From Oribacterium sp. NK2B42 (GTDB lineage Bacteria > Bacillota > Clostridia > Lachnospirales > Lachnospiraceae): a stretch of DNA of 64,000 nt. The notes under the pieces are model-generated. The model made no database searches. It saw only the letters and a program-made list of their open reading frames with translations, and was not told the origin of the DNA. Shown piece after piece: positions 7,204-62,259 of this stretch; the stretch's first letter is position 1; each line of letters opens with the position of its first letter. The DNA lies in assembly GCF_000424445.1 (NCBI RefSeq), contig NZ_KE384187.1, forward strand, positions 94,356 to 158,355, in the 5' to 3' direction. A program made the position numbers and the translations under genes.

Positions 7204-7229
7204 CTTTTTATGAACAAATGGCTGATGGA

Positions 7230-7258
7230 TTGACACCGGTTTACGCCGGTGTTATTCT
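7230..7258 (+). promoter_or_regulatory. lon promoter
   Basis: TTGACA (7230-7235), a 17-base spacer and TATTCT (7253-7258) form a good vegetative promoter. The CIRCE element starts 12 bases after the -10 box, where a repressor would block initiation. A small ACACCGG/CCGGTGT hairpin lies inside the spacer. Confidence 0.75.
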
Positions 7259-7269
7259 TTTCTAAATCA

Positions 7270-7296
7270 TTAGCACTCGATTTAATCGATTGCTAA
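7270..7296 (+). promoter_or_regulatory. CIRCE operator (HrcA site) upstream of lon
   Basis: TTAGCACTC, a 9-base spacer and GATTGCTAA match the CIRCE consensus (TTAGCACTC-N9-GAGTGCTAA) with one mismatch in the right arm. CIRCE is bound by the heat-shock repressor HrcA (established). The position just after the promoter fits repression of lon. Confidence 0.88.
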
Positions 7297-7423
7297 CAGG
7301 ACGATGTAAGCGCCTCACGTATGCCATACAAGGCTTGCCACCGATGAGAGACAGCTAAAGCTGCACGGCGGCAAGCAGGCAAGACACTGTGTGTGCTTCA
7401 CATATTCCAGAAAGGTGTAATTT

Positions 7424-13014: not shown

Positions 13015-14310
13015 ATGTACCGAAAAGTAAAGGAAAAACTGAAACAGTGGAAGCAAAATCCCTACAGAAAACCACTTATCCTGCAAGGACCGCGTCAGGT
13101 TGGGAAGACCTATCTTGCACTGGAATTTGGACGGGAAGAATATGAAAATGTAGCATATTTTAATTTTCAGACTGATGGACGGCTGATGGAAACATTTGAG
13201 GAAAATATACAGCCATCATATCTTTTGCCTATATTGTCCAGAATCAGCAAGACCAGCATAATAAAAGAAAAAACATTGATCATTTTTGATGAGGTACAGC
13301 TTTCGGAAAAGGCCCTTGCCTCACTTAAGTACTTCTGTGAAGAGGCACCGGAGTATCATGTGCTTGCGGCGGGAAGTCTTCTTGGAGTGGCTGTTAATCG
13401 TGAGCAGTTTTCATTTCCTGTTGGTAAAGTTGATATGATTGGTATGTATCCGATGGATTTTGAAGAGTATCTTCTCGCAAAAGGAGAGGAAGAGCTGAGA
13501 AACAGGATCAGGTCATCTTTTGACACGAATGAAGCGTTACCTTCGGCTGTACATGAAGACGCATTAAGGTTATATCGGGAGTACCTTGTTGTGGGTGGGA
13601 TGCCTGAGTGTGTGGCGAAATACATTGAAACCGGTGATCACATCCTGATCCGTCAGACGCAGGAAACCATTCTTGCAGGATACATGAGTGATATGAGTAA
13701 GTATAATAAAAATACTGAGATTCCCAAAACCAGACTTACCTATAATTCCATCGTCACTCAACTTTCGAGACAAAATACAAGATTTCAGTATAAACTTGTG
13801 AAAAAGGGTGGAAGAGCTTCTGAACTTGAAAATGCCATAGAATGGCTGGTTTTGTCAGGCATTGTTGACAGGGTATATGGTTTGGAGCAGGCAAAAAAGC
13901 CTTTAGAGAATTATAAGGATATAGACGCGTTTAAGATATATATGTCTGACACCGGTCTCCTTTTGGCAAAGCAGCAGGTTGTCCCGGAAGATGTGCTTTA
14001 TAACACTCATGAGCTTGATGAATTTAAAGGAGGAATGACAGAAAACTATGTTGATGCCCAGCTTAAAACAAGTGGGTATACTACGTATTTTTGGACAGGT
14101 GATAACAATTCGGAGGTCGACTTTGTGATACAGCGAGAGGGGAAGATCATTCCTATCGAAGTAAAGGCTGCCGAAAATGTTCGCGCAAAGAGTCTTAATA
14201 TCTTTATGAAAAAATATGACTCAGATTATGCAATAAGACTTTCAACAAAGAATTTTGGTTTTGAAGAGGGAAAAAAGGCAGTTCCGTTATATGCGGCGTT
14301 TTGTATATGA
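13015..14310 (+). CDS. AAA-family ATPase with C-terminal DUF4143 (nuclease-like) domain
   Basis: 431 aa. Walker A GPRQVGKTYL lies at about residues 24-33 and Walker B LIIFDEVQ at about 90. The C-terminal domain carries an acidic/lysine pattern (NSEVDFV then IPIEVKAAE) that resembles restriction-endonuclease folds. This large, scattered family is common in anaerobes and often called AAA_14/DUF4143. Its role is not established, with mobile or defence roles suspected. GGAGG precedes ATG 13015. A decayed relative lies at 48,600. Confidence 0.88.
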   Translation: MYRKVKEKLKQWKQNPYRKPLILQGPRQVGKTYLALEFGREEYENVAYFNFQTDGRLMETFEENIQPSYLLPILSRISKTSIIKEKTLIIFDEVQLSEKALASLKYFCEEAPEYHVLAAGSLLGVAVNREQFSFPVGKVDMIGMYPMDFEEYLLAKGEEELRNRIRSSFDTNEALPSAVHEDALRLYREYLVVGGMPECVAKYIETGDHILIRQTQETILAGYMSDMSKYNKNTEIPKTRLTYNSIVTQLSRQNTRFQYKLVKKGGRASELENAIEWLVLSGIVDRVYGLEQAKKPLENYKDIDAFKIYMSDTGLLLAKQQVVPEDVLYNTHELDEFKGGMTENYVDAQLKTSGYTTYFWTGDNNSEVDFVIQREGKIIPIEVKAAENVRAKSLNIFMKKYDSDYAIRLSTKNFGFEEGKKAVPLYAAFCI

Positions 14311-14332
14311 AAATGGCTTACATTTCTAAAGG

Positions 14333-14377
14333 ATACCGGGGGACGGTTCTCGCCGGAGAGAACCGTCCCCGATGGTA
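14333..14377. repeat. REP-like palindrome, copy 1
   Basis: ATACC-x-GGGGACGGTTCTC and GAGAACCGTCCCC-xxx-GGTAT pair almost perfectly over a 6-base loop. The same core occurs at 21,968 and 43,077. Bidirectional hairpin downstream of the ATPase. Confidence 0.85.
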
Positions 14378-14402
14378 TGTTGGTGTGTGAAGGGAAATCC
14401 AA

Positions 14403-15569
14403 ATGGCATTAACATATGAGATAAAAACAGAAAAGGGATTGAGCTTTGTGTCTGTTACAGGCTATGAAGGGTCTGTACGGGTGCTTTTTGTGCCGGAATA
14501 TATGGAGGCAAGAGGGGGCTGTGAAGCTTCGGGAGGTATAAATGAACCGGGAGATAAGGATAATGCAGGTGCCGGATCAGAGGATGATGGAAATGGGCCT
14601 CTGATTCCGATTGGGGAAATCAACAACAGAGCCTTTGCATCAAGGGATGATATAGAGTCCGTGACTCTTACGGATAAGGTGAAGAGGCTCCGGCCCTATG
14701 CTTTTCACAACTGCCACCATCTTCACTACATGAAGCTTACTGACAGTGTGGTGGATTATTATGACGGGGCCATACGTCAGTGCCAGGAGCTGCAGGAAAT
14801 TGACATTACCTTTAATCAGATTGGGAGTTTCCGGCTTTTGAAGGAGATAATAGGCGACAGTGATGCCATGATCCCGGTGCTGATTCATTTTCCTGTGGAT
14901 GAAGAGCACCTGAAGGTGGATGAGGTTTTGGATAAGCTGCCGGAGAGAGTTTTAAGGCGGGAGGAGATCGGGAATCCGGACGGGAGCATTAGCCGGAGGA
15001 CCATGGTTACGGCGGCGCTTACGTTTCCGTCCTATGCGGATAATTACGAGGAGGATACCTTCAGCCGGGCGTTTCATGAACATATCGAGGGCTCCGGCTA
15101 CAACACGAGGCAGCTGGTTACGAGAACTGAGATCGATTTTTCGGGCTATGATAGGCAATTTCAGAGGTTTACCTATGACGAACCGGCCAGTGCGGTTAAT
15201 GCTGCCTTCGGAAGACTTATGTATCCCTGGAGACTTTCCGATGATTATAGAGAGCAGTACCGCGAATATCTGAGGAGTCACAGCCCTGAGATTTTGCCGA
15301 GGCTGATTCAGGGGCAGAAAGCGCCCCGCTTCGGACATGAAGGGGAGCTTATCTGGATACCTCAGGACAGCAGGAGAACAGATGAAAGGATCAGGTTTCT
15401 GGTTGAGGAGGAACTAATCTCTGAGGAGGCAATCGCTCCGGCGCTGGAGGCGTCTTCTCGGGAGGGAGCGGTTATTACTTCCGCAATGCTCATGGACTAT
15501 CAGAACCGGAATTTCAGGAGCGGTGCAGCGGGTAAAATGGCCACGGGGCCTGAAACATTTGAGTTATAA
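14403..15569 (+). CDS. Leucine-rich-repeat-type protein of the MoxR/VWA locus
   Basis: 388 aa without signal peptide. Residues about 70-140 contain BspA-like LRR pieces (AFASRDDIESVTLTDKVKRLRPYAFHNCHHLHYMKL). The rest is a mixed charged domain I do not recognise, preceded by an acidic Gly/Asp linker at 38-65. It stands ahead of a VWA protein and a MoxR ATPase on the same strand, where a substrate-recognising adaptor would make sense (inference). It is the least known part of that locus. Confidence 0.65.
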   Translation: MALTYEIKTEKGLSFVSVTGYEGSVRVLFVPEYMEARGGCEASGGINEPGDKDNAGAGSEDDGNGPLIPIGEINNRAFASRDDIESVTLTDKVKRLRPYAFHNCHHLHYMKLTDSVVDYYDGAIRQCQELQEIDITFNQIGSFRLLKEIIGDSDAMIPVLIHFPVDEEHLKVDEVLDKLPERVLRREEIGNPDGSISRRTMVTAALTFPSYADNYEEDTFSRAFHEHIEGSGYNTRQLVTRTEIDFSGYDRQFQRFTYDEPASAVNAAFGRLMYPWRLSDDYREQYREYLRSHSPEILPRLIQGQKAPRFGHEGELIWIPQDSRRTDERIRFLVEEELISEEAIAPALEASSREGAVITSAMLMDYQNRNFRSGAAGKMATGPETFEL

Positions 15570-46734: not shown

Positions 46735-46944
46735 ATGGATATAGCAAAATCAGTAAAAGAGCTGAGAGAAAGCACAGGGATGTCACGTAAGGAGTTTTCA
46801 GAACATACAGGCATCCCTGTTCGTACATTGGAAGACTGGGAAGCAGGGCGCAGAACTCCTCCGGAATATATCCCGAGGATGTTGGCATATCAGATAAAAT
46901 CTGAGGGGATTTTTGCTGGAAAAAAAAGCAAAAAAAAAGATTGA
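46735..46944 (+). CDS. Small HTH (XRE-like) regulator, copy A
   Basis: 69 aa: AKSVKELRESTGMSRKEFSEHTGIP then VRTLEDWEAGRRTPPEYIPRMLAYQI, a complete helix-turn-helix with a Lys-rich tail. GAGGTGA precedes ATG 46735. The 3' end runs through A8 and A9 tracts and overlaps the start of the following gene by 32 bases in another frame. A close relative with the same promoter layout lies at 62,976. Likely antitoxin or autorepressor of its cassette. Confidence 0.82.
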   Translation: MDIAKSVKELRESTGMSRKEFSEHTGIPVRTLEDWEAGRRTPPEYIPRMLAYQIKSEGIFAGKKSKKKD

Positions 46945-47449
46945 CATTGTTACTGATCCGGACGGGAACAAAATAGTCTTGATTAATGATATTTTATTTA
47001 AGTCAAGAAGATCGATTAATTGGGATGACATAGAACAGATATTAATGCACTATATCGGGGAATACTATGAGATTGCCGAAACTGCAGAAAAGGTATATAT
47101 AGGATCAGATTTTCCGGATGAGTTTACACATTCAAAATATACAAAAGCTATTAGAGGTGCAAATGAGAAGGCAAAGGCTAATGTGATAACTGCAATTGGT
47201 GAATTAATCCAAATTTCAGATAAGAAGGCAGAATTTCCGGACTATGGCAACCGTCATGGTAATAAAGCAAAAAACGGATGGTATCGATATGATACAAGGT
47301 TTGGAATTCCGGTTTATAGTGAAGTTGGTGAAATTGAGAGATACAATATTTTCAGAGCAAGAATGCTGGTTCGATGTGATGCGAATGGTAAATTATTTCT
47401 GTATGATATTGTGCAAATAAAAAAAGAAACGAGCACGCCGCTTGAGTAA
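46913..47449 (+). CDS. LPD3/barnase-like mobile-element protein downstream of the HTH gene
   Basis: 178 aa starting with TTG 46913 inside the HTH gene. The C-terminal half (HSKYTKAIRGANEKAKANVITAI, KNGWYRYDTRFGIPV and LYDIVQIKKETS) resembles domains found in large polyvalent proteins of phages and conjugative elements, related to nuclease-type LPD3/PBECR folds by my recall. A relative remains at 59,220-59,473. A possible toxin with the HTH protein as antitoxin. If one base were deleted from the A tracts the two would fuse. Function not established. Confidence 0.6.
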   Translation: MLEKKAKKKIDIVTDPDGNKIVLINDILFKSRRSINWDDIEQILMHYIGEYYEIAETAEKVYIGSDFPDEFTHSKYTKAIRGANEKAKANVITAIGELIQISDKKAEFPDYGNRHGNKAKNGWYRYDTRFGIPVYSEVGEIERYNIFRARMLVRCDANGKLFLYDIVQIKKETSTPLE

Positions 47450-49476: not shown

Positions 49477-49690
49477 GTAAATTGCTCCGATGGGATTTCC
49501 TGTCGGAGCGTTTATTTTGTTCAAATTGAATTTAAGGGTACAGGACTGCCTGTTGAGGCTCTAAAATGCAATAGCGTAAACGAGAGACACATGAAATGGG
49601 TATTCTGGATGTCAGGGTTACAGGTAATGGAGAGAGGGGGTGGTGGGTGGTTTTGGTTTATAAAAAATTAAAAATAGACGCATTGATTTT

Positions 49691-49736
49691 CCTGTGTATC
49701 TGTGTTATAACTTACACATGCACACAAGTACACAGG
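49691..49736 (+). promoter_or_regulatory. Operator comb with promoter upstream of the RHH gene
   Basis: TGTGT at 49693 and 49701, then ACACA at 49714, 49722 and 49730 are all separated by exactly 8 bases within each orientation. TTGATT (49683), 17 bases, and TATAAC (49706) provide a promoter that the sites overlap. Ribbon-helix-helix proteins bind such spaced half-sites, and the next gene encodes one. Confidence 0.65.
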
Positions 49737-49754
49737 TGAATGTGAGGTATAATT

Positions 49755-49916
49755 ATGGCAGAAGAAAGAAATATGGTTAATTTAACTCTTACGGTAACAA
49801 GAGAGGAACGGAAAGCATTAAAACAGTTGGCACTTGATAAGGATACAACTGTATCTGCTCTTTTACGTGAGTGGTTAAAAGAGCATTTGGAGCAGGAAAA
49901 GCCTGCGAAGAATTGA
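49755..49916 (+). CDS. Ribbon-helix-helix (CopG/Arc-like) regulator
   Basis: A 53-aa protein with a beta strand NMVNLTLTVTREE, then helices KALKQLALDKDTTVSALLRE and WLKEHLEQEKP, the RHH fold. ATG 49755 has a GAGG stretch 8 bases ahead. It lies directly upstream of the methyltransferase gene on the same strand, with periodic operator half-sites in front of it. The likely role is control of the restriction-modification genes that follow (inference). Confidence 0.82.
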   Translation: MAEERNMVNLTLTVTREERKALKQLALDKDTTVSALLREWLKEHLEQEKPAKN

Positions 49917-49998
49917 CTGTCCATAATGATTGTGTGAATGTCGGCGGCATTCTCCGCTGTGAACGTTGGGAACACGTATAAGCCAAGGAGGAAATGTA

Positions 49999-51066
49999 AT
50001 GTCAAAAGAAGTATTTAGACTGGGTGAACTGTTTTGTGGCCCAGGCGGAATTGCGTGCGGAGCACACAATGCAGTTAGCGATGATGGAGAAAAATCCATT
50101 GTCCATGTGTGGGCAAATGATTTTGACCCAGACACTTGTGAAACGTACACGAAAAACATCTGTCATGGCGATGGATCTTCCGTTTATTGCAGCGATGTCC
50201 GTGAGTTGGATATACCATCTCTTGGACCGATAGATGCTTTTGCTTATGGCTTTCCCTGCAATAGTTTCTCCAATGTTGGAGAACATCAGGGCTTAGAAAA
50301 CGATAAGTTCGGCCAGCTCTACACATATGGTGTAGAAGTGCTGAAATACTATCAGCCTAAGTGGTTCCTTGCCGAGAACGTGTCTGGTATTCGTTCTGCT
50401 GGTGACGGTAGTCACTTTAAGATTATTCTGGATGACCTTGCGAACGCAGGTTATACGCTGGTGACGAACATGTACAAGTTCGAGGAATACGGAGTACCGC
50501 AGACAAGACATAGGATAATCATTGTCGGTATCCGTAATGACCTGGATGCTCAGGGTATAAAATTCAAGGTTCCGTCGCCAGAACCTTATAAGAACTGTGA
50601 TATTTCTGCGGGTACTGCTCTTGCAAACATTCCCGCTGATGCTCCGAATAATGAGATTCGCAAGTTGCAGGACAAGGTGAGGCTCCGCCTCTCTTACATC
50701 AAGCCAGGACAGAATATCTGGCAGGTAGAGAATCTTCCGCCAGAGTTGATGATAAAGACGAGGACGAAGATTAGTCAGATATATAGGAAACTTGACCCCT
50801 CAAAGCCGTCTTACACGGTGACAGCTGCTGGCGGTGGAGGCACATTTATGTATCACTGGTCAGATGAACAGCGTGAATTGACAAATAGAGAGCGTGCGAG
50901 GATTCAGACCTTCCCAGATGACTTCGAGTTTATCGGGAAGTATTCATCTGTCAGAAAGCAGATTGGAATGGCGGTTCCTCCAAAGGGGGCTGAGATTATC
51001 TTCAGAGCCATTCTGAATACCTTTGCTGGGATTGAATATCCGTCTGTGGAGCCGAGCATGTCATAA
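49999..51066 (+). CDS. DNA (cytosine-5-)-methyltransferase
   Basis: 355 aa with C5-methylase motifs in order: LGELFCGPGGIACG (I), GFPCNSFSNVG (IV, catalytic Cys87), AENVSG (VI), QTRHRIIIVG (VIII) and KQIGMAVPP (X). It methylates cytosine in a recognition sequence that cannot be read from the protein. AAGGAGG precedes ATG 49999. Next genes encode a FokI-like nuclease and Vsr, so it is the modification half of a restriction system. Confidence 0.95.
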   Translation: MSKEVFRLGELFCGPGGIACGAHNAVSDDGEKSIVHVWANDFDPDTCETYTKNICHGDGSSVYCSDVRELDIPSLGPIDAFAYGFPCNSFSNVGEHQGLENDKFGQLYTYGVEVLKYYQPKWFLAENVSGIRSAGDGSHFKIILDDLANAGYTLVTNMYKFEEYGVPQTRHRIIIVGIRNDLDAQGIKFKVPSPEPYKNCDISAGTALANIPADAPNNEIRKLQDKVRLRLSYIKPGQNIWQVENLPPELMIKTRTKISQIYRKLDPSKPSYTVTAAGGGGTFMYHWSDEQRELTNRERARIQTFPDDFEFIGKYSSVRKQIGMAVPPKGAEIIFRAILNTFAGIEYPSVEPSMS

Positions 51067-51093
51067 AAAGCAATATGATTGGAGGAGACAATC

Positions 51094-52707
51094 ATGGCAT
51101 ATATGCACTGGTTCGTATCGAGACAGAAACGGCAACTGACAACGATACTTCAGGCACTTGTTGCCTATAGTGATGTCTGTGTCGGTAGAGTATGGAATCA
51201 CGAACTCCAACTTGATTTTGAAGATATTCTTGGTGGTAGAGAAATTACCGAGCACGGTTCTCTTCGAGCGAGACGTGCTGGCCAAGGTGGTGGCGGGACA
51301 AGGACGCTGTTTAAGCAGATGAAAGACCTTGGCCTTGTATTTCTTGAGGATGAGAACAAGAAATGTCGTTTGACACTAATTGGCGAAGAACTGGTAAAGG
51401 GAAATATTTCTTTTGTGGATGCGATGCGTCTGCAACTGCAGAGGTATCAGTATCCATCAGCGGCTGTATGGTCAGGTTCCGGTAGTGTTGACCATAGCAT
51501 AAAGGTTCATCCTTTCCAGTTCATGTTCCGTCTACTCCGAGATGAGCGTTTGGAAAACACACTGAGTATGGAAGAAATGTACGGTATCGTGATACACAGA
51601 GCCGTTTCAGATTCTGATGCTGTGTTTGAGGATATCGTTTTACGTATAATCCGATACAGGCAGAATGTTACCGATGATTTTGTTTACGATACGGACACGA
51701 AAACCTATAGCAATATAGCCAATACGTTCTTCAATTATATCAACCTTACTCAATATATTGATAGAGGCTTTAAGACTATCAGTGTGCGTCAAGGCAAGGA
51801 AGCCGAGGTAGATGCTTTTATAGAAGCCTCTCCTACTTTTATTCCTCATCCTGAACTGACCGAGAACTATCAGCGTAAATACGGCAGGGGCAAAGTAGCG
51901 AAGGATTTGCGTAACTTTGACCGTGAGAATGCTCTTTCGCAGAAAGAGTTGAATGAAGCGCGTATCAGGCGTGAATATGTTCTGTTGGCATTGAAAACAC
52001 CGATTACAGGCATTACTCCTGATATTGTGGAGCATGTGTCTCACAATACAGGTGTGGATGAAAAGACGGTGGAACGGTTCCTTATTCAGAACTATCCGCA
52101 TGGAAATATCGACGATTTCTTCTTATGTTACAAGGAACTTGCTCATATGGGCACAGCAGGGGCCAGGGATTTTGAGACTGCCACTTGTGAGATGTTCCGA
52201 AAGATATTCCGAATGAGGGCTGAACATGTCGGTCCGATTGGGAACACACCGGATGTGTTTGTAGAATCGACAGATGCTGGCTATTGCGGGATTATTGATA
52301 ATAAGGCATACAAGAATGGATACAGCATCAGTGGCGACCACAAACGGGTCATGGAAGATGTTTATATCCCGAATTATAAGACCTATGGTCAGACTGAACA
52401 GCCACTGGCTTTCTTTACGTATATTGCAGGTTCCTTTGGAAGCAATATCAATAGTCAGTTGGCAACAATCACGAGGGATACGGGAGTGAGTGGTTCTGCT
52501 ATGCCTGTTGATATTTTTATCAATCTGGCTCAGGATTATGCGGATAAAGGCTATGACCATAAATTCTTGAAAGATATATTCAGCGTGAATCGTGAGATTC
52601 AATTGTCTGACTTACAGCCGAAGAGCAAGGCGTTCCAATATGATTTCCAGTCTCAGAGCCTTGGGATGGTTGCAGAGCCTACAGTTCCGTATGGCAAAAA
52701 GGACTGA
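51094..52707 (+). CDS. FokI-like restriction endonuclease
   Basis: 537 aa. The C-terminal nuclease domain has the PD-D/ExK pattern: PDVF (D387) followed by GIIDNKAYKNGY (D402, K404), closely like the FokI cleavage domain (PDG... VIVDTKAY). The N-terminal part has winged-helix-like segments (about 1-330) that should read the DNA site. Cuts DNA not protected by the methyltransferase upstream (inference from context). GGAGGAG precedes ATG 51094. Type IIS-like cutting is likely, not proven. Confidence 0.85.
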   Translation: MAYMHWFVSRQKRQLTTILQALVAYSDVCVGRVWNHELQLDFEDILGGREITEHGSLRARRAGQGGGGTRTLFKQMKDLGLVFLEDENKKCRLTLIGEELVKGNISFVDAMRLQLQRYQYPSAAVWSGSGSVDHSIKVHPFQFMFRLLRDERLENTLSMEEMYGIVIHRAVSDSDAVFEDIVLRIIRYRQNVTDDFVYDTDTKTYSNIANTFFNYINLTQYIDRGFKTISVRQGKEAEVDAFIEASPTFIPHPELTENYQRKYGRGKVAKDLRNFDRENALSQKELNEARIRREYVLLALKTPITGITPDIVEHVSHNTGVDEKTVERFLIQNYPHGNIDDFFLCYKELAHMGTAGARDFETATCEMFRKIFRMRAEHVGPIGNTPDVFVESTDAGYCGIIDNKAYKNGYSISGDHKRVMEDVYIPNYKTYGQTEQPLAFFTYIAGSFGSNINSQLATITRDTGVSGSAMPVDIFINLAQDYADKGYDHKFLKDIFSVNREIQLSDLQPKSKAFQYDFQSQSLGMVAEPTVPYGKKD

Positions 52708-52710
52708 CAT

Positions 52711-53139
52711 ATGGCTGATGATATGATTCCTGAACAGCGCAGAAGAAACATGCAGCATATCAGGTCGAAGGATACGTCTATTGAAGTGAAACTGAGAACG
52801 GCACTCTGGCATGAGGGTATCCGCTATCGGAAGAACTATAAGAAGTTGGTCGGAAAACCTGATATAGTTATCACGAAATATCGGATTGCTGTGTTCTGTG
52901 ACGGTTCGTTCTGGCATGGAAGAAACTTCGATACGAAGAAGCCTGTGGATACCAATCATGAGTATTGGGATACGAAGATCAGACGTAATATGGCTCGTGA
53001 TGACGAAGTTGATAAACAACTGAAAGCCGAGGGCTGGACTGTACTGCGGTTCTGGGATGCGGAGATAAATAAGCATCTGGAAGACTGTGTGAAGACGATT
53101 AAGGAAGCAGTACTGGATGCGAAGAATCACAATAATTGA
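52711..53139 (+). CDS. vsr: Very-short-patch (Vsr) mismatch endonuclease
   Basis: 142 aa beginning RRRNMQHIRSKDTSIEVKLR, then GKPDIVITKYRIAVFCDGSFWHGRNF and RRNMARDDEVDKQLKAEGWTVLRFW, the Vsr pattern. It nicks T:G mismatches from deaminated methylcytosine, correcting damage created by the C5-methylase. The zinc cysteines of the E. coli type (FWHGCP) are replaced by Arg-Asn, as in some Firmicute homologues. It starts four bases after the nuclease stop. Confidence 0.92.
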   Translation: MADDMIPEQRRRNMQHIRSKDTSIEVKLRTALWHEGIRYRKNYKKLVGKPDIVITKYRIAVFCDGSFWHGRNFDTKKPVDTNHEYWDTKIRRNMARDDEVDKQLKAEGWTVLRFWDAEINKHLEDCVKTIKEAVLDAKNHNN

Positions 53140-53159
53140 AAAATATTTTTAAAATATTA

Positions 53160-53206
53160 CACGCTTTGATTTCAACTAAGGTTGTATCAAGGCGTGCTTT
53201 TATTTT
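53160..53206 (+). terminator. Terminator after vsr
   Basis: CACGCTTTGAT pairs with ATCAAGGCGTG (one G-U) and a T-rich run follows. It ends the RHH-methylase-nuclease-vsr transcript. Confidence 0.85.
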
Positions 53207-53289
53207 TCTCATATTCGTAACATGTGCCTTTTCAAAGAAATATTTAATATAATATTTGAAAAATGTGACGCAATATATGGCGTATATTA

Positions 53290-53318
53290 TTGACAGAACA
53301 CGATTGAACTGCTATATT
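53290..53318 (+). promoter_or_regulatory. Promoter of the GHKL-ATPase operon
   Basis: TTGACA (53290-53295), 17 bases, TATATT (53313-53318). A strong separate promoter after the terminator, starting the second defence operon. Confidence 0.8.
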
Positions 53319-53352
53319 ATTCTCAGAATATTAGCAAAAGGAGGCCGATGTC

Positions 53353-53589
53353 ATGGCGAAAGAACAAGAGACAAAACGTGAGAGGTTCGTAAGATTGGCA
53401 GAAGCCAGGACGAACAAGATTATCGATATGCTTCAATTATTGGGCAATTGCTCTAATTCGAGTGCGTATGATTACACACAACAGGATGTTGATAAGATTT
53501 TTTCTGCGATTGAGGCAGAGGTCAGGGAGGCAAAAAAGAAATTCAGTAAATCGGAGACAAGAAAAAGTACTCGGTTTACTCTTGAATAA
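53353..53589 (+). CDS. Small helical protein heading the GHKL operon
   Basis: A 78-aa helical, charged protein I do not recognise (TKRERFVRLAEARTNKIIDML then a Tyr/Asp part and a KKFSKSETRKS tail). AAGGAGG precedes ATG 53353. It is 15 bases ahead of the ATPase gene and may be its partner or regulator. Confidence 0.68.
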   Translation: MAKEQETKRERFVRLAEARTNKIIDMLQLLGNCSNSSAYDYTQQDVDKIFSAIEAEVREAKKKFSKSETRKSTRFTLE

Positions 53590-53604
53590 AGGAGGCAGAG
53601 CAAT

Positions 53605-55896
53605 ATGAATATGATGCCGATACCGCAGAATTATAAGAATAGTGTTGACTGGATTCTCGGGGCTTATACGGATGCTGGTGTAACCTTTACGAACGGCTTC
53701 CAAAAGGATGCTATACAGAATGCTGTTGGTGCAAGAAAGACCAACAAGTGGAAGAATTGGCGGTGTGACATTTCTTACAAGCAGAATGCTTGTGGCAATT
53801 TTGTAGTAGTCGAAGATTCTGGAACTGTTGGTCTGACAGGAAATAATATCCCAGGTACAGTGGTTAATCAGATGATGGCTGATGGCAAAGTGCTTCCGCC
53901 AGAGGAACGCCTTGCACGTTTTACATCGCTTTTCAATTCAGGTGGAAACACAACTGGTGGTGGTCTGTATGGTGCAGGAAAAAGCGTTTATTCTGTTGCA
54001 TCAGAAGATTACACTTATTATTTTGATTCTTTGCGTGAAGACGGAAAATATGTCGCTAATGTGAATAATAAGGGCCAGGTCATGGAGATAGCGTTGGAGG
54101 GCGATGAAGCCCGACAGTTTATCTTCGAAAAGACTGGAATGCCTGCAAAGAATACCGTAGGTACGAGGGTGATTATAATATCACCGAAAGCAGAATTGTC
54201 AGATTCTATTCAGGATGGAAGCATCATTCCGTTCATTCAAGAGTCATGGTGGCTTATTATTCAGCGGTTAACAGATGATTCTGCAATTACTGTGAACGGT
54301 GTTTCCGTTACAATACCAACTGATATCAAAACTACGCCAAGAGCATTTGAATTACAGAATCCAGAAGTCTATTCAGCAGGGCATAAAGTGAAGCATTTTG
54401 GCCTGTATGTCTTTGAAGATGGTTCCAATAGGTGGTCAGGGATTTCGTACTATCGTAAGGGAATGAAGATTGGTGAGATTGACATCAAAGACGTTCCCAA
54501 GAAGGTTGAAGGAAAGTATTGGGGCTATATCGAAGTAGACGAACTCTGGGAAGATGAACTTTCTGATATTGAGGATAAGGTTCACTTTGGTGTAAGCAAA
54601 GGAAAGAAGAAGACTATCACTTATCAGAACATGAAGAATTACTGTAATAGTAAATTCCATGCGAATATGGTCGAATGGGACTTCATAAAAGATAAGGAAA
54701 GCGAAGACAAAAAACTGAAAGATGAACTGAAGTCTATTGCTGAGGAACTTCAGGATTTGTTTGATAAACTGCATTTTGAAGACCTTGGTAAAGGTCCCCA
54801 AAAGGCTGATTTCGATATTCGATGGCAGGATATTCGCTATCCTGAACAGGATACAGAGAGAGTAACTGCAGGTGATGAGATTTCGTTTTCTGTTCGAATT
54901 AAGAGTTCATATGCAGCAGATAAGAGATTCGATTACAAACTTTCTGTAGTAGATCCGGAGAATGGTTCAGTTCTTTCTCAGATTGATGCTGGCAAAGTGA
55001 CGGTTCATTCTAATACTGTACACCGCATGGATTTTGTCCATAAGGTGACGAAGGACAATTCACGACAGTTTGCAGAGAACCGGATTGTGCTTTCTGTAAA
55101 GGTTGTCGGCAGTGGGAAAGAAAAGACAAAGATACTGCCGTATTTCTTTGATATTGATAAACCTGATAATACACGTGAAACGGTTGGACTGACGTTGCAT
55201 GAGTGCCTCTTCCCTGTTCAGGGAAGTCGCCGTGTAAACTTTGGTGAAGCAGTTCGAAAGGTTTGCTGGAAGATTGAGAACAAACGGAATCACACGTTGA
55301 ATTATCGGCTGAATGTGAGTGTTCATAACGCAAGTGATAAGACCTGTCCTAAGATTGTAGATGTAGTTTCGCTTACGGGAGAGATTCCTCCGTTTGAAGA
55401 CGTGATAACGCCGTATGTTGAAGAGATTGTTTTTGACCAGGCAACATATGAACCATATCTTTCTGAAGGTACAGTAGAACTGAGAGCAAGACTAATTGCA
55501 AACGAAGATGATCCGATTTATGAAAAGGGTGATAAGATTACTTTTTATTACTTTAAGATTTTCCTGAATACGGATGAGAAAAACGGCAAGAGTGATTCGT
55601 TTGATATTGAACTTGCTAATGCTGCCGATAGATATGAGCGTGCATGGCGGACGCCAGGAAACGGTAGGACAATTACGCTTAACATAGGACATGCGGCGTA
55701 TTTGAATCTGTCTGACTATCCAGACGTTCAGCATGATTATCTACGTGAACAGATGATGAAGCAGTATGTTCTGCTTTATCTTGACGAAGGCAAGTATGAT
55801 GTGTTCGGAGACGGGTTTGCAGACCTTGAGCCACAGGAAGCAACTGATAAGGTATTGCAAAAGATCGAGAGTGTCTACTACGAGAGCCTGAAGTAA
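53605..55896 (+). CDS. GHKL (MORC/Hsp90-like) ATPase of the defence island
   Basis: 763 aa. The Bergerat fold shows in order: DAIQNAVGA (Asn motif, about residues 35-43), VVEDSGTVGLTG (D-x-G-x-G, about 69-80) and the glycine lid GGGLYGAGKSV. A coiled part (about 345-400) and a long beta-rich C-terminal region with repeated Ig-like strands follow. GHKL ATPases of MORC type are known partners of restriction-modification systems in bacteria. GGAGG precedes ATG 53605. The role of the C-terminal domains is unknown. Confidence 0.82.
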   Translation: MNMMPIPQNYKNSVDWILGAYTDAGVTFTNGFQKDAIQNAVGARKTNKWKNWRCDISYKQNACGNFVVVEDSGTVGLTGNNIPGTVVNQMMADGKVLPPEERLARFTSLFNSGGNTTGGGLYGAGKSVYSVASEDYTYYFDSLREDGKYVANVNNKGQVMEIALEGDEARQFIFEKTGMPAKNTVGTRVIIISPKAELSDSIQDGSIIPFIQESWWLIIQRLTDDSAITVNGVSVTIPTDIKTTPRAFELQNPEVYSAGHKVKHFGLYVFEDGSNRWSGISYYRKGMKIGEIDIKDVPKKVEGKYWGYIEVDELWEDELSDIEDKVHFGVSKGKKKTITYQNMKNYCNSKFHANMVEWDFIKDKESEDKKLKDELKSIAEELQDLFDKLHFEDLGKGPQKADFDIRWQDIRYPEQDTERVTAGDEISFSVRIKSSYAADKRFDYKLSVVDPENGSVLSQIDAGKVTVHSNTVHRMDFVHKVTKDNSRQFAENRIVLSVKVVGSGKEKTKILPYFFDIDKPDNTRETVGLTLHECLFPVQGSRRVNFGEAVRKVCWKIENKRNHTLNYRLNVSVHNASDKTCPKIVDVVSLTGEIPPFEDVITPYVEEIVFDQATYEPYLSEGTVELRARLIANEDDPIYEKGDKITFYYFKIFLNTDEKNGKSDSFDIELANAADRYERAWRTPGNGRTITLNIGHAAYLNLSDYPDVQHDYLREQMMKQYVLLYLDEGKYDVFGDGFADLEPQEATDKVLQKIESVYYESLK

Positions 55897-55909
55897 GGGA
55901 GGGCTGGAT

Positions 55910-56674
55910 ATGAATCATGTGGTATCACTGGATAAGGATGGTCATCTTATATATAAGGGTCTTCTTACTGCAAAAGAAATTGCTACGATTGATGAAATCC
56001 TAAATGCTCTGAAAGAAGAGATTCCTCAGATAGAGTCTGACCTTGAAGAAACCTATGGGAAGACTGTGTTGTATAGGTATTATCTTGGGAAGTTCCTTGG
56101 TGAACTTCTGATGAAATATAATATTTCCGTCGCAGAGCGTAGACGTTTTTGGGATGAAATCAAAACGTTTGCAACACAGGAAACACGAATTCGTGATGAA
56201 GGTGCAAATTCTGTTACACGTAGTTTTTATGAACAATGTTATGTGTTGTCACAACAGGACTTAAACGTTGTACAGAAATTGTCAGCAAGACAATGGCAGG
56301 ACTTGCTCGATAGAGTTGGAAATCGAGAGGATGAGCGTATCTTCCAATGGATAAAAAACAAGAGTGAAAAAATCCGTGAGGATGACTGGCGTGAGTTTGA
56401 AAAAGGTTTACATCTTTATTTAAAGAACAAAGATACGTCTGTTTTTACAGATGAAGAGTTGTTTGAGGTGTATGATTCCATCTTTGAAATGAGCAAATAT
56501 TGGAGGATTGCGTTTAAACAGTTTTCAAAGGATTTTCCAAAGAGCGATAAGATAAAAAGTAAAGCACGTCGGTCAAAGAAATACCAGGAAACATGTTTTA
56601 AGTTGAAGAAAGAAAGGCGTGTGCCGCTTGATGATGATGTTTTCTCTGAGGCATTTGAAATGGCAATGAAATAG
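55910..56674 (+). CDS. Unrecognised helical partner of the GHKL ATPase
   Basis: 254 aa, wholly helical and charged, no signal peptide or membrane helix. GGGAGG precedes ATG 55910, 13 bases after the ATPase stop, so it is in the same operon. I do not recognise a domain. By position it is likely an effector or adaptor of the ATPase. The end (KSKARRSKKYQETCFKL) is Lys/Arg-rich and may touch nucleic acid (inference). Confidence 0.65.
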   Translation: MNHVVSLDKDGHLIYKGLLTAKEIATIDEILNALKEEIPQIESDLEETYGKTVLYRYYLGKFLGELLMKYNISVAERRRFWDEIKTFATQETRIRDEGANSVTRSFYEQCYVLSQQDLNVVQKLSARQWQDLLDRVGNREDERIFQWIKNKSEKIREDDWREFEKGLHLYLKNKDTSVFTDEELFEVYDSIFEMSKYWRIAFKQFSKDFPKSDKIKSKARRSKKYQETCFKLKKERRVPLDDDVFSEAFEMAMK

Positions 56675-57334: not shown

Positions 57335-58249
57335 GTGTGTTCCTTCCCTGTATATTCCCCGCTTTGTATCATACAAACCCGAACGGAACAACAGATGAAA
57401 TATACCCATAATCTTTATCCAGAAAAGGAAACGCTTATAAATATCCTGAAGAAATTTGGCCATATATCTTCTAATGGACTGATTAGCATACCGAAGTTCG
57501 GTGCTGACGCACAGGCTATAGATAATAAGAAGAAAGGACTGCTTGGAACACTTTTTTCGGCTTCTTGGTATACAAAGCATTATGAAAAATCCTTAGTGGC
57601 ATCTTTGGATGATGACAAGGCACGGCTATGGCTTCATGATAGCCGCTTTGGAAACGAAAGAGCTGATCTTATTGGATTAAGGTATGATCTTCTTCTATAT
57701 GATTCCGCTGTAAGAGTAAGTGAACTCACCGGATTGCGGATCAATGACGTGGATTTAAAAACGCTATCGATCCACATCCATGGGAAAGGGAACAAAGAAC
57801 GTTCCGTTGCAATCAGCGAAAAAACCGCAGCGCATTTGAAACGGTATATGTCCATTTATCATGCTGACGGATGCCGCCCCGAAGATTACCTGTTCTATAC
57901 TGTGATCAAAGGCAAAGTTGGTTCCGTTTCTATGAGCACAGTAGAAAGGATTCTCCAGAAATATGCCGATGAAGCCAGAAAAGAATGCCCTGACATTCCT
58001 AAACATGTATAACCGCACCTGTTTCGCGCCGAGAGAGCCACACATTTATACAGAGATGGTGTAGATTCCATCATGATTTCCAAGATACTCGGTCACTCCA
58101 GTATTGAAACCACCAAAATCTACGCACTCCCGTCTATGGATCAGATGCGCGAGGCAATGAATAAGGTTGATATGCCGACCGATGCAGCTGAAAAACCCTT
58201 ATGGGAAGGCGATGAAGATGAAATGGCGCGGCTCTGTGGTCTGAAGTAG
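57335..58249 (+). pseudogene. Tyrosine recombinase (integrase), broken
   Basis: The core RVSELTGLRIND (catalytic Arg), GKGNKERSVAIS (Lys) and, after an in-frame TAA at 58010-58012, PHLFRAERATHLY, ILGHSSIETTKIYA (His and Tyr) are present. The stop sits where relatives have Tyr (GTA TAC), a one-base change. The N-terminal arm-binding part is shortened. Thus both nonsense mutation and truncation disable it, and the family's second His of the HxxR-H triad is Ala. Former integrase of this island. Confidence 0.82.
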
Positions 58250-58720: not shown

Positions 58721-59473
58721 CAACGAGATATCCTGGGAGGATTTCTGCAAGAGGGTAAGCACCACGCAGTACACCACGGAGACCGTGGAAGAGTACAGGA
58801 AGATGACGAAGGCAAGGCGTGATGCCATTAAGGACGTGGGCGGTTATGTCGCAGGCCATCTGAAAGATGGGAGGCGGAAGGTCGGCCATGTTATTTGTCG
58901 TTCCATGCTGACGCTGGATATGGACAACGGTATGCCGATGATGCTCAGCTGATCTGTTATGTGGATGAGAAGTACGGAACATTTTCACAGAGGAATTACA
59001 GTATCGCCGTTGCGAAGGTCGTGGATGACCGTTCATACCATACGATCAGGGATTTCTTTAAGAACCTGCCGGAATGGGACGGGGCAAATACAAGGCGTGG
59101 GAGCTGGATGATGATATCGTGGCTCAGATATGGGCGGAGGCCAAGGTTATTGCCAGAGCCGGGGAAAAGCTTTATCTTCCGCCGGAGCTTGAGGAATTTG
59201 CCAAGGATGAGCAGCGGGCGGCGATGGATTGAGATTGCTACAAACGGTATTTTTGAGAATAACCGAAAGGCTATGCACGGCAGAGATGCAAAGAATGGTT
59301 GGTACCGATATGAGACTAGATTTGCTGTTCCGATATTTAATGAGGATGGGGAAGTGGTTCGATACAATATATTTAAAGGTCGTTTGCTTATAAGACATGC
59401 TTCAAGTGGGAAGAAATACCTATATGGTGTTTTAGAAATAAAAAAAGAAACGAGCAAGTCCTGTCAGGCATAA
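58721..59473 (+). pseudogene. Remnants of a VapE-type primase-associated protein and an LPD3-like protein
   Basis: 58,721-58,951 reads SWEDFCKRVSTTQYT and DVGGYVAGHLKDGRRK, then an out-of-frame DEKYGTFSQRNYSIAVAKVV and, in a third frame, WELDDDIVAQIWAEAKVIA and LPPELEEFAKDEQR, all pieces of VapE proteins. At about 59,226 the frame joins EIATNGIFENNRKAMHGRDA and NGWYRYETRFAVPIF, which match the protein at 46,913. It is a chimera of decayed phage or ICE genes. Not functional as written. Confidence 0.72.
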
Positions 59474-59557: not shown

Positions 59558-59818
59558 ATGAAGAAGACTAAATGCTATATTTATACTCGCGTATCTACGG
59601 CCATGCAGGTAGATGGATACAGCCTGGATGCTCAAAAGGATAAACTGAAGCGTTATGCAGCCTATGAGGAAATGCAGATTGTAGGAGAGTATTCTGATGA
59701 GGGACACTCCGGTAAGAATATTGCCGGCCGACCTGACTTCCTAAGGATGCTTGAGGATATTGAAGATGGCAAGGACGAGGTTAAGGTCGTCACCAGAACA
59801 TTCGCTTCTATAGAATAA
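59558..59818 (+). pseudogene. Truncated serine recombinase
   Basis: 86 aa holding only the first part of a resolvase/invertase catalytic domain: YIYTRVSTAMQVDGYSLDAQ (with nucleophile Ser in the VST) and EYSDEGHSGKNIAGRPDF. It diverges after KDEVKVV and stops, lacking the rest of the catalytic domain and the DNA-binding part. Remnant of a second recombinase in the island. Confidence 0.82.
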
Positions 59819-60144: not shown

Positions 60145-60510
60145 ATGACTAAGTTTATCAATAATGTAAATAAATATTTGTCAGAGATGAAGATTAAGCA
60201 GACATACCTTAGCATGATTACAGGGATTGATAAGAATAAAATATCACGCATATTAACCGGTGCTCAGGAGGAAAGCGGCACAGATATGGAAAAAATTGCT
60301 CGTGGTTTAGGAAAAACCGTTGAGTTCTTTTTGGTAGACACAATCTATATCCCGCAAATAGGAACTGTATCAGCGAATAAAATTGCGTTCTATGCCGGAG
60401 AACCATCTGAAAAGCAGGAACAAATTGCTAATCAGCTAATGGAACTGATGGAGAATATTGATGAAGTGTTGAGCGCCAAAAGCCGGTTTGAGCACATAGC
60501 AAGAGGATAA
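60145..60510 (+). CDS. XRE-family HTH regulator of the ImmA/IrrE-PIN operon
   Basis: 121 aa. The helix-turn-helix reads MKIKQTYLSMITGIDKNKISRILTGAQ (about residues 14-40); the rest is a helical dimerisation-type tail. AAAGGAGCGAG precedes the ATG. It heads a run of three tightly packed genes: HTH, metallopeptidase, PIN-like protein. Probably represses its own promoter, and is the likely substrate of the protease that follows, by analogy with ImmR/ImmA. Confidence 0.83.
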   Translation: MTKFINNVNKYLSEMKIKQTYLSMITGIDKNKISRILTGAQEESGTDMEKIARGLGKTVEFFLVDTIYIPQIGTVSANKIAFYAGEPSEKQEQIANQLMELMENIDEVLSAKSRFEHIARG

Positions 60511-60513
60511 GGT

Positions 60514-61317
60514 ATGAATGTTGAACGTTTGCGAAAGATAATTTCATACAGTGAATCGGATCGTGAAGAAATTGATTCTAAGGTGAAGCGGTTCTGCTCT
60601 TTTGCCGGGATCGAATATGATAGTGACCTGCTTAATATCTTGCAGATTGTCAGATCTTCATTTCAGAAAAAAGGATACCTTGTTTTTGAAATACCTTTTG
60701 CTGATGATGAAATAGGGGCTTTGTGTTATAGAGGAGATGGGCTGGGGTATGTTGTACTTAATACATCATTGCCAAAAGTGAACGTTAACTTCGCTATAGC
60801 ACATGAGATTTATCATGTCTTTTTTGGATCTGAGGAGTTTGTCTCAAAAGTCGAATTTGTTGATGACCATTACTACGAGCATGAGGGAGAATATGCTGCA
60901 AATCTCTTTGCCGGAATGCTCCTGATGCCTGAAGTTAGTTTCAGAAGAATGTATTCTAAATTCAAAGACGAATCAGGGGGAGATGAAATCGGTACAATCG
61001 TTAGATTAATGTCTTACTATCAGGTACCGTATATGGCGGTATTGATAAGATGCCTGGAATTGGGCCTGATTAAGGGAAATGCAGAACTGGATGTATTGTT
61101 TAGCATTGATAGAGCAGGGGTAAAGCAGCAATTAACAGAATTGTGGTTGGATGAAAGTATTATGGAGCCCTCTTTGCGTGATGATTATATTCATATTGAA
61201 GCTCTTGTTGGCAGGTTTGGAAGGGAATTCATTGAAGATAAATATATTAATGAGAGAACAGTCTGTAAAGCGCTTAAAAACATGCGAGAACTATATGCAA
61301 AGATTAAGGGGGAGTAG
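60514..61317 (+). CDS. ImmA/IrrE-family metallopeptidase
   Basis: 267 aa. The zinc site HEIYH in the helix FAIAHEIYHVFFG lies at about residues 97-103 and the third ligand region EGEYAANLFAGMLLMP follows, the ImmA/IrrE pattern. Such proteases cut XRE-type repressors to switch on mobile or stress genes (known for ImmA, IrrE). It begins 3 bases after the XRE stop, with AGGATAAGG ahead. It ends with a charged helical tail. Confidence 0.9.
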   Translation: MNVERLRKIISYSESDREEIDSKVKRFCSFAGIEYDSDLLNILQIVRSSFQKKGYLVFEIPFADDEIGALCYRGDGLGYVVLNTSLPKVNVNFAIAHEIYHVFFGSEEFVSKVEFVDDHYYEHEGEYAANLFAGMLLMPEVSFRRMYSKFKDESGGDEIGTIVRLMSYYQVPYMAVLIRCLELGLIKGNAELDVLFSIDRAGVKQQLTELWLDESIMEPSLRDDYIHIEALVGRFGREFIEDKYINERTVCKALKNMRELYAKIKGE

Positions 61318-61320
61318 AAT

Positions 61321-62259
61321 ATGGCATCAACATATGCGGAAACCCCTGACAACTATAGTGAAATAAAAGAATCTGTTGTTGCAGATATAGATGAGATTAA
61401 AAGTGTATTCTTCAAAGCTGAAAAGGTGCTTTTTTATGATGCATGTTCGTTTCAAAGGCATTCGAACTTGAGGGAAAATGAAAAGAGTATATTGATCCGG
61501 TATTTTGAGAACCGGGGAATAGCAATCTTTTTGACAAGATGTATACTGATGGAACTATCCGGAGACAACAACGTCTTGAATCGGCAGTTTATTGAATATA
61601 TAAACAAACTGAAAAACTCCGGAGTGAGTGTAGTTATCTTCGACGAGGAATATTCATACAGCATCCTTTCGGATTGTTTTTCTACGATTGAAAGAGTAAA
61701 TGAGTATCTAATGTGGGCAGTACGTATGGCGAAAAGCCCTACAAGCACTATTACGGAAACTCTTAAAATGAATGATAAACTCAATTCCGAGGTAGTCGAG
61801 GGGAAAAATCTCAAAGCTTCTGATTTATATCAAAGATTCTTTTCTGCGGTGAGAAGCAATAAAGAGCATGAAGATAATCTCGGAGAGGAACTAATTTCAA
61901 TATGTGCGCACATTTTATCCTATTTGCCGGGAGTACCGGACGGAAAGCTGTGTGTGCTTACTGATGATAAGGGTGCAGCCAGTAAAATAGATTCTGTAAT
62001 GAGAAGAACTAATCAAGAATATCGAGGCTCAAGAATTATCCTATTCAGCACTCCAAAGCTCATACAACATATGTTCCAAGAAGGTGTAGGGTTATCAGAA
62101 GATGAAATTGTAAATCTTCTTTCCCAAGGTATATCTGAAAATATCGTGATAATGGGGATTACAGATTATGATTTTAGAGTAAATGATAAAATTCCGATTT
62201 TATGTAGAGAACTCGCTCAAAAAATCATTGAGCCGAATGGAATCAAGATTGTTTTTTAA
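61321..62259 (+). CDS. PIN-like nuclease candidate, third gene of the XRE operon
   Basis: 312 aa. Asp40 in FYDACSFQRH, Glu near MELSG (about 80) and Asp-Asp in LTDDKGAASKID (about 220) match the spaced acidic residues of PIN-like nucleases, but the fold is only inferred. GGGGGAG precedes ATG 61321, 4 bases after the protease stop. As the last gene of a repressor-protease-effector run it may be the effector (toxin or RNase). Confidence 0.5.
   Translation: MASTYAETPDNYSEIKESVVADIDEIKSVFFKAEKVLFYDACSFQRHSNLRENEKSILIRYFENRGIAIFLTRCILMELSGDNNVLNRQFIEYINKLKNSGVSVVIFDEEYSYSILSDCFSTIERVNEYLMWAVRMAKSPTSTITETLKMNDKLNSEVVEGKNLKASDLYQRFFSAVRSNKEHEDNLGEELISICAHILSYLPGVPDGKLCVLTDDKGAASKIDSVMRRTNQEYRGSRIILFSTPKLIQHMFQEGVGLSEDEIVNLLSQGISENIVIMGITDYDFRVNDKIPILCRELAQKIIEPNGIKIVF

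Follow-up and report, generated by a model that had tools for sequence, protein, structure and literature searches.

We analyze a seven-gene locus in a 64,000-nucleotide stretch of the Oribacterium sp. NK2B42 genome (hereafter, the window). Our favored reading, held with moderate confidence, is that the locus provides a modular, methylation-guided defense in which a FokI-type restriction-modification (R-M) system is joined by an exchangeable GHKL module that uses the same mark. By this mark the module probably tells host DNA apart from that of phages, whether or not a recognizable DNA-cutting enzyme is present. The module, which comprises a small protein (p78), a 763-aa ATPase (GHKL763), and a helical protein (p254), is syntenic in all five loci found (the window, L008, L009, L010, and L011), with gaps of 1-17 bp or a 1-bp overlap, and a C5-methylase gene lies upstream of it in each of the five, with other R-M genes intervening in L008. 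The gene neighborhoods described in PMC2292703 include MORC/paraMORC GHKL genes in R-M settings with cytosine methylases and Vsr. An earlier sequence-only reading is supported in part, namely in its view of a defense-type locus that links a MORC-like GHKL ATPase to a methylase.

Locus layout and control signals

All seven genes are intact open reading frames on the plus strand, arranged in two operons (Table 1), and the gene list drawn up from sequence stands, with families matched for the methylase, the FokI domain, and Vsr. The residues named for the nuclease (D387 and D402-N-K404) are in place as well, the protein carrying the PD...DxK signature as PD386-387 and D402-N403-K404; its N-terminal half scores 7.6e-05 against RE_AlwI, just under that model's cut-off. 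Between the operons lie, as had been proposed, a terminator and then a promoter. Folding of the region after vsr (53140-53215) gives a z of -7.4, and the hairpin is absent from the output of a simple terminator scan. The promoter is the top-scoring one of the 8-kb region, with a TG preceding its -10 element; as promoter-like sites number 19 in this region versus 18.4 in shuffles, only the quality of TTGACA-17-TATATT stands out, not the count of such sites.

Table 1. Genes and control signals of the two operons (positions in the window)
Feature	Position	Strand	Basis
Probable RHH operator	49686..49741	.	20-nt inverted repeat, 80% complementary, just 5' of RHH gene; putative operator role
RHH (CopG/RelB-like) regulator, 53 aa	49755..49916	+	Scores just under Pfam / curated cut-offs
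C5-cytosine DNA methyltransferase, 355 aa from ATG	49999..51066	+	PF00145 DNA_methylase 1.1e-68; PDLC03378 1.3e-101
Restriction endonuclease, FokI-type cleavage domain, AlwI-like N-terminal half	51094..52707	+	PF09254 FokI_cleav_dom 3.9e-15
Vsr very-short-patch endonuclease, 142 aa	52711..53139	+	PF03852 9.8e-29; TIGR00632 9.1e-42
Intrinsic terminator hairpin, inter-operon	53159..53198	+	Folding energy -22.5 kcal/mol
Second-operon promoter TTGACA-17-TATATT	53290..53318	+	11/12 consensus match
p78, small protein, 78 aa, head of GHKL modules	53353..53589	+	Synteny 5/5 loci; profile searches
GHKL763, divergent GHKL-type ATPase, 763 aa	53605..55896	+	Motifs
p254, helical protein, 254 aa	55910..56674	+	Synteny 5/5 loci; fold not matched

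GHKL763 as a divergent ATPase

The designation of the 763-aa protein as a GHKL ATPase survives in part: its motifs occur in the GHKL order, but no GHKL profile in Pfam, PADLOC, NCBIfam, or PHROGs matches it and its N-box holds an Asp. The putative "GHKL" label thus rests on motifs, namely D35..QN39, D71..T.G76L, GG..G.GK (119-126), GTR (186), GMKI (286), and E323...H327, among which the ATP-lid series (N-box, DxGxG-type, G-rich lid, GT) is present with the variants D..QN and D..T.GL. A strict pattern, composed after the motifs had been seen, fits four of the five GHKL763 sequences (in L009 one G is changed), 3/11 M33A-type proteins, and none of 200,000 shuffles. The catalytic residue in the GHKL N-box is usually Glu; because Asp35 takes its place in all five GHKL763 sequences, ATP hydrolysis may be slow or absent. 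Much of the ATPase region, where a Bergerat ATP-binding fold would be expected, is modeled at pLDDT < 50, and the ATPase domain is not confidently folded.

The MORC S5 motif GhXhhpXXRhl is missing, an alignment inspected by eye having no Arg at the expected place after G286-M-K-I. A paraMORC2-type ExxxH, E323...H327, is found in 5/5 GHKL763 sequences and in 11/11 M33A-type proteins, its assignment to S5 being presumed from position; the motif description in Iyer et al. 2008 (PMC2292703) places ExxxH of paraMORC2 in the C-terminal part of S5.

The C-terminal part consists of a beta-rich region (about 403-654) followed by helices, with no nuclease family match in Pfam. Foldseek relates the GHKL763 model to transglutaminases, RbmA, and others at low TM-scores (among the first 50 matches, 0.10-0.13 to the query and at most 0.38 to the target); we infer that these matches concern the beta-rich part, because model confidence is better there. 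A fusion of M33A and M33B was ruled out, M33B not being matched, and no kinship was found to the 794-aa ATPase of L028.

The two partner proteins

Across the five syntenic loci, p254 is 65-75% identical, and its predicted model has a pLDDT of 85. The earlier description of it as unrecognized continues to apply: the model matches nothing among PDB and viral structures at E <= 0.001, and the sequence has no credible match in four family libraries. Three candidate identities were set aside, namely a HEPN nuclease (the R161...H168 pair is broken, with N in L008), a form of PDC-M33C (the profiles do not match), and a PRESAN match in Pfam that lies below the cut-off and was taken as chance.

The 78-aa protein, also without a credible match in four family libraries, is no novelty of this locus: p78 turns up in numerous GHKL loci and has homologues elsewhere too. 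Profile searches gave 13 matches at E <= 0.001 and 24 at E <= 1e-6, in 36 distinct places. At fifteen of these the locus also has a GHKL gene (two places fall within one locus, L062), counting L028, whose ATPase was called GHKL by eye only, and L072, whose M33A is split into two ORFs; a C5-methylase is in the fetched stretch at 12 of the 15 and at none of the other three (G498, G525, G398). The 21 places with no GHKL gene in view, five of them never fetched, are of several kinds. Ten lie inside frames of 620-644 aa (L066, the one scanned, is an AMP-binding fusion by Pfam; four more were fetched only and five never fetched), five share a neighborhood with a probable DNA ligase gene in four (by eye), four are of a longer type with 93-128-aa frames, three of them in conjugative-element-like stretches (by eye), and two are of other kinds, one weak. 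L026 and several of the non-GHKL p78 frames are known from the genome search and are missing from the ORF table. Since 21 of 36 places have no GHKL gene in view, p78 by itself is no proof of defense.

Distribution and exchange of partners

GHKL763 is rare: a search of 391 class genomes turned up one other relative of full length, and a pattern-seeded scan covering a single genome for each species yielded four GHKL763 loci, the class relative included. Plasmids, phages, and viral contigs contained no GHKL763 relatives, and plasmids and viral contigs no relatives of p254. Weak GHKL763 matches in three class genomes (L003-L005, short, E 6.5e-4 to 6.6e-3) and one from the phylum search (L007) were treated as chance.

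The partner sets of GHKL763 differ between loci: a methylase and a FokI-like nuclease in the window; a methylase, two NgoFVII-type nucleases, Z1, and Vsr in L008; and a larger methylase, in a cassette without nuclease, in L009, L010, and L011. Each set is also carried by PDC-M33, a PADLOC candidate and second p78-linked GHKL module (FokI-like in L027, NgoFVII in L062, large nuclease-free methylase in L012 and L026). The pattern suggests a methylase-coupled slot for interchangeable GHKL modules; such a slot near C5-methylases would hold differing GHKL modules plus one small marker protein, p78. PDC-M33 is composed of the GHKL-like PDC-M33A, M33B, and M33C/DUF6339, and it has the p78 family and C5-methylase classes in common with the GHKL763 module; GHKL763 and the M33A group also share motifs in the same linear order, D..T.GL and ExxxH among them. 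Unlike PDC-M33, however, GHKL763 and p254 match no PADLOC model (M33A, M33B, and M33C included), p254 is not followed by a third protein in the window, and the beta-rich region is inside GHKL763. Profile comparison of GHKL763 with M33A is weak (probability 8 to 13; score 31.1, against 30.4 for the best among 60 shuffles). The methylase link is not absolute across the p78/GHKL group at large, as no C5-methylase occurs in the 16 kb read at three PDC-M33 loci (L064, L070, L071).

Seen from the nuclease side, the methylase adjoins the FokI-like nuclease in all five full-length nuclease loci, the window included, and in two of the five the sequence read includes a GHKL module (GHKL763 in the window, PDC-M33 in L027). 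Two of the three others end at contig ends. Of the pairs found, that in L085 most resembles the pair in the window (methylase 79%, nuclease 67%); no GHKL module is in view there, where the nuclease side extends for only 0.9 kb. L086, an intact locus, holds the methylase-FokI pair without a GHKL module in 17 kb read.

Proposed mechanism and competing explanations

In the reading we favor, the C5-methylase would mark the host chromosome, the RHH-controlled FokI-type nuclease would cut unmarked DNA in a conventional type II-like manner, and Vsr would repair T:G mismatches arising from 5-methylcytosine deamination. The exchangeable p78-GHKL763-p254 module would sense methylation state and act on DNA without the local methylase's methylation, with a presumed anti-phage effect: the paraMORC-like GHKL763 probably shuts on DNA as a dimeric, ATP-driven clamp, and p254 and p78 would serve as adaptor and/or effector.

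The sequence-only reading had left two options, methylation marks for the ATPase or two stacked systems, and had made operon co-occurrence the deciding count. That count divides: the exact pair of FokI-like nuclease and GHKL763 is joined in the window only, among the loci found, so that one fixed system is not supported, whereas methylase and ATPase occur together in 5/5 loci, which favors marks for the ATPase over unrelated stacking. The strongest rival, which we judge rather unlikely, is nonetheless that a full FokI-type R-M operon and an unrelated abortive-infection-like GHKL module are chance neighbors in a defense hotspot. It would account for the inter-operon terminator and separate promoter, the R-M pair standing alone in L086, the Thoeris-type genes that come after the module in L010 as further stacked defenses, and the window-only pairing, but it sits poorly with an upstream C5-methylase in every GHKL763 locus when the genomes have just one or two such genes apiece, and with the recurrence of PDC-M33 alongside the same methylase classes.

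A bolder form of the methylation-guided reading, which we hold to be unlikely, is that L009-L011 encode a nuclease-free, four-gene restriction in which incoming unmethylated DNA is recognized, then topologically clamped, looped, or compacted by a MORC-like ATPase and silenced instead of cut, silencing in the window backing up cutting through one mark. If true, methylase/p78/GHKL763/p254 silencing would be a bacterial counterpart of eukaryotic MORC silencing. The three methylase cassettes without a recognizable nuclease make cutting versus clamping addressable with four genes, and the locus would give a handle on the role of MORC-like ATPases in R-M, which the 2008 passages on these genes (PMC2292703) infer from gene neighborhoods only.

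Quite improbable, in our estimate, is a module that regulates or stabilizes the methylase or nuclease and takes no action on foreign DNA; a constant methylase link beside varying nucleases would suit it, but a regulator made of a 763-aa ATPase and a 254-aa protein would be large, the methylase already has RHH or HTH genes 5' of it (window, L008, L009, L011), and PDC-M33 occurs also without a C5-methylase in view. Least probable of all is GHKL763 as a MutL-like partner of Vsr in repairing 5-methylcytosine deamination rather than a defense effector, an idea encouraged by Vsr in the window, L008, L012, L026, and L034 and by the joint treatment of MutL and Vsr repair in the relevant portion of the 2008 paper (PMC2292703), but opposed by the absence of vsr from the 22 kb read in each of L009 and L010 and by its position in L011, ~3.8 kb downstream of the module and outside its operon.

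Relation to known systems

As paraMORC2 is portrayed in the pertinent sections of PMC2292703, GHKL763 resembles it in GHKL motif order, in an ExxxH after the presumed S5 lysine, in a Bacillota-type host (class of a Clostridia MAG), and in linkage to a cytosine methylase and Vsr, a likeness at the level of published motifs; it differs in its N-box Asp for Glu, in GA for DA, and in a module without an SF2 helicase. With CglI/NgoAVII-type R-M, as outlined in PMC4267653, the resemblance is that of L008 (NgoFVII-type nucleases, Z1, methylase, Vsr), likened by gene families only, whereas the window has a FokI-type nuclease and no Z1. VcSduA, the paraMORC3 protein combining GHKL and Shedu nuclease, has a GHKL ATPase and a role in anti-phage defense in the account of PMC12137116; it has its own PD-(D/E)xK nuclease domain, where the C-terminal part of GHKL763 is beta-rich and helical instead.

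Results

A conserved three-gene module beside a C5-methylase

ORF calls, Pfam and an 11/12 promoter match bore out the genes, coordinates, promoter and catalytic residues proposed in the sequence-only reading. That promoter, the top match within 8 kb, lies between the two operons together with a hairpin 3' of vsr (z -7.4). A 20-nt inverted repeat 5' of the RHH gene is likely its operator. The three proteins of operon 2, namely a 78-aa protein (p78), a 763-aa GHKL-type ATPase (GHKL763) and a 254-aa protein (p254), have no credible match in Pfam, PADLOC, NCBIfam or PHROGs.

Genes of the two adjacent operons, in window coordinates
Gene	Position	Operon	Pfam evidence
RHH regulator	49755-49916	1	scores just under cut-offs
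C5-methylase	49999-51066	1	confirmed
Nuclease	51094-52707	1	FokI cleavage domain, confirmed
Vsr	52711-53139	1	confirmed
p78	53353-53589	2	
GHKL763 ATPase	53605-55896	2	
p254	55910-56674	2	

In all five loci with GHKL763 (the window and L008-L011, from other genomes), p78, GHKL763 and p254 are consecutive, separated by 1-17 bp or overlapping by 1 bp; identities to the window's proteins are 73-89%, 64-73% and 65-75%, respectively. Every one of these loci also has a C5-methylase upstream on the same strand. The methylase of L009, L010 and L011 is large (533-536 aa, covered by two separate matches to the methylase model) and lies 180-214 bp 5' of p78 with no intervening restriction gene. That of L008 (350 aa, 57% identical to the window's) is 5.4 kb 5' of p78, and the interval holds Vsr, two NgoFVII-type nucleases and a Z1 protein on the opposite strand. 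Because each of the five genomes carries one or two C5-methylase genes (same-frame pieces counted as one), a methylase beside the module in every locus is unlikely to be due to chance; L009-L011, having one methylase type in common, are only partly independent. L011 also has, 5' of its intact cassette, a 107-residue fragment (7221-7541, minus strand) that is 64% identical to p254 and likely the remnant of a second copy.

The predicted p254 model (pLDDT 85) is mostly helical. Searches of PDB and viral structures gave nothing at E <= 0.001, profile comparison did not link it to M33C of the PADLOC candidate system PDC-M33, and no nuclease motif was seen by eye; an adaptor or effector role is our guess.

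GHKL763 is rare. Among 200 family genomes, only that of the window has it; full-length matches number 2 in 391 class genomes (one being the window; 3 weak short matches set aside) and 1 in 398 phylum genomes (the window; 1 weak match set aside). A scan of 84,980 species, one genome each, seeded by two short peptide patterns and thus detecting close relatives only, gave four loci: one from Oliverpabstia intestinalis (L008), two from Erysipelotrichaceae MAGs (L009, L011) and one from a Clostridia MAG (L010, the class-search match G390 again). There were no relatives in plasmids, phages or viral contigs.

The link between the operons is one-sided

A search of 200 family genomes with the nuclease of the window gave four further full-length relatives and one weak match; 206 class genomes gave none besides the window, and one weak match. 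All five full-length nuclease loci pair it with a methylase, and two, the window and L027, have a GHKL module. L086 has none within 17 kb. At L085 and L087 the short sequence past the nuclease gene shows no GHKL module; one may lie beyond, since the contigs end after 0.9 and 0.4 kb. As the methylase accompanies every known GHKL763 module and the restriction-modification pair can occur without one, the link is one-sided. The suggestion that the operons belong together is therefore supported for methylase and module (5/5 loci) and not for the nuclease pair (2/5 with any GHKL module).

Partner exchange with PDC-M33

The p78 profile matched 36 distinct places, 15 within loci having a GHKL gene and 21 elsewhere. 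The ATPases of the three scanned p78 neighbours (L026, L027, L034) match PADLOC's PDC-M33A; the remaining M33-type neighbours, including L012, a viral contig detected through its p78, were placed in that group through blast or a profile made for this analysis. Three kinds of partner set each occur with both GHKL763 and PDC-M33 modules. The 355-aa-type methylase with a FokI-like nuclease occurs with GHKL763 in the window and with M33 in L027 (methylase 60%, nuclease 36% identical to the window's). The same methylase type with an NgoFVII nuclease occurs with GHKL763 in L008 and with M33 in L062, where both are fused into one protein (methylase 68% identical to L027's) on the opposite strand, about 3.4 kb past the M33C gene. 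The large methylase without an adjoining nuclease occurs with GHKL763 in L009-L011 and with M33 in L012 and L026 (50% and 53% identical to L010's enzyme); in both M33 loci Vsr follows, and L026 additionally has an HNH_2 gene (small genes of L012 by blast comparison only). M33 loci L064, L070 and L071 have no C5-methylase within the 16 kb read.

Several other observations concern these families. An unexpected second setting of p78 is the N-terminus of a 616-aa protein bearing a Pfam AMP-binding enzyme domain (L066:7868-9718); the p78 profile also matches 615-625-aa ORFs in L067, L069, L075 and L076, the AMP-binding evidence being from L066 only. Large, at least partly related proteins recur in PDC-M33 loci (L027:1-2274, L062:9226-12516, L063:1427-4219, L070:7986-10796), with a Sigma70_r4-like helix-turn-helix in both of those scanned (L063, L070), and are a candidate for a partner of M33 not described before. 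L028 (5521-8052) and L065 (5094-7616) encode 843- and 840-aa proteins, 68% identical to each other, the former joining a C5-methylase domain to an Eco57I/N6-type methylase domain; downstream of each lie p78 and a third protein, GHKL-like by eye, 794-804 aa long and lacking Pfam matches.

Assignment of the ATPase

GHKL763, itself without a family profile match, has six motifs in GHKL-like order: D35..QN39, D71..T.G76L, GG..G.GK (119-126), GTR (186), GMKI (286) and E323...H327. An alignment of 11 M33A-type proteins shows invariant counterparts: E..QN..DA, D..T.G, G..G.GK, GTD, the M of GMKI and E...H. A strict ordered pattern fits 4/5 GHKL763 proteins (L009 is off by one G) and 3/11 of M33A type; within a set of 341 ORFs of >=200 aa it fits no others, and it fits none of 200,000 shuffles, a count that overstates the proof because the pattern was composed after viewing both families. 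Whole-protein profile comparison with M33A was weak (probability 8), and N-terminal profiles scored 31.1 versus 30.4 for the best of 60 column shuffles. In the N-box, all five GHKL763 proteins carry Asp where those of M33A type have Glu, so ATP hydrolysis may be slow. The predicted model is poor, with a mean pLDDT of 55 and the lowest values over large stretches of the ATPase region; a strand-rich segment at about residues 403-654 is predicted better and resembles two beta-sandwiches. The model's best Foldseek matches, at low TM-score, are to proteins with beta-sandwich domains.

The ExxxH after the S5 lysine is a reported mark of paraMORC2 (PMC2292703), and GHKL763 has it after its presumed S5 lysine. 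The MORC motif is missing (by eye).

Proposed mechanism and defence context

The methylase would most likely mark self DNA, with the nuclease and the ATPase module each acting on unmarked DNA. We propose a clamp role for GHKL763 by analogy, because MORC2 is reported to be a DNA clamp that compacts DNA with ATP hydrolysis (PMC12216690). VcSduA, a GHKL-nuclease protein, has reported anti-phage action (PMC12137116); both studies concern systems other than the window locus.

GHKL genes alongside methylases, Vsr and nucleases are already known: they were described in 2008, with a minority of loci lacking a helicase (PMC2292703), and another GHKL group linked to C5-methylase and Vsr was reported in 2021 (PMC8011034). 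No paper in the literature searched mentions PDC-M33 or DUF6339 by name, and the portions covered of the literature on GHKL, methyltransferase, anti-phage and paraMORC systems gave no description of the p78-GHKL763-p254 set. New here are the module itself, its association with a methylase at each locus detected, and the exchange with PDC-M33 under a common p78.

Downstream of p254 in L010 come ThsA_Macro and two ThsB_TIR genes (13045-15127, with a 35-bp ORF overlap), a neighbourhood that supports a putative defence role for the module; this Thoeris-type stretch additionally has a terminase-like ORF (by eye).

The window's defence region lies between two ORFs (46913-47449 and 58895-59473) with related C-terminal segments, near recombinase-like fragments (57335-58012, 59558-59818; all by eye), and the flanks are possibly a mobile-element graveyard. 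At 60145-62259, an HTH regulator and IrrE/M78 peptidase pair precedes a 312-aa protein that has no Pfam match.
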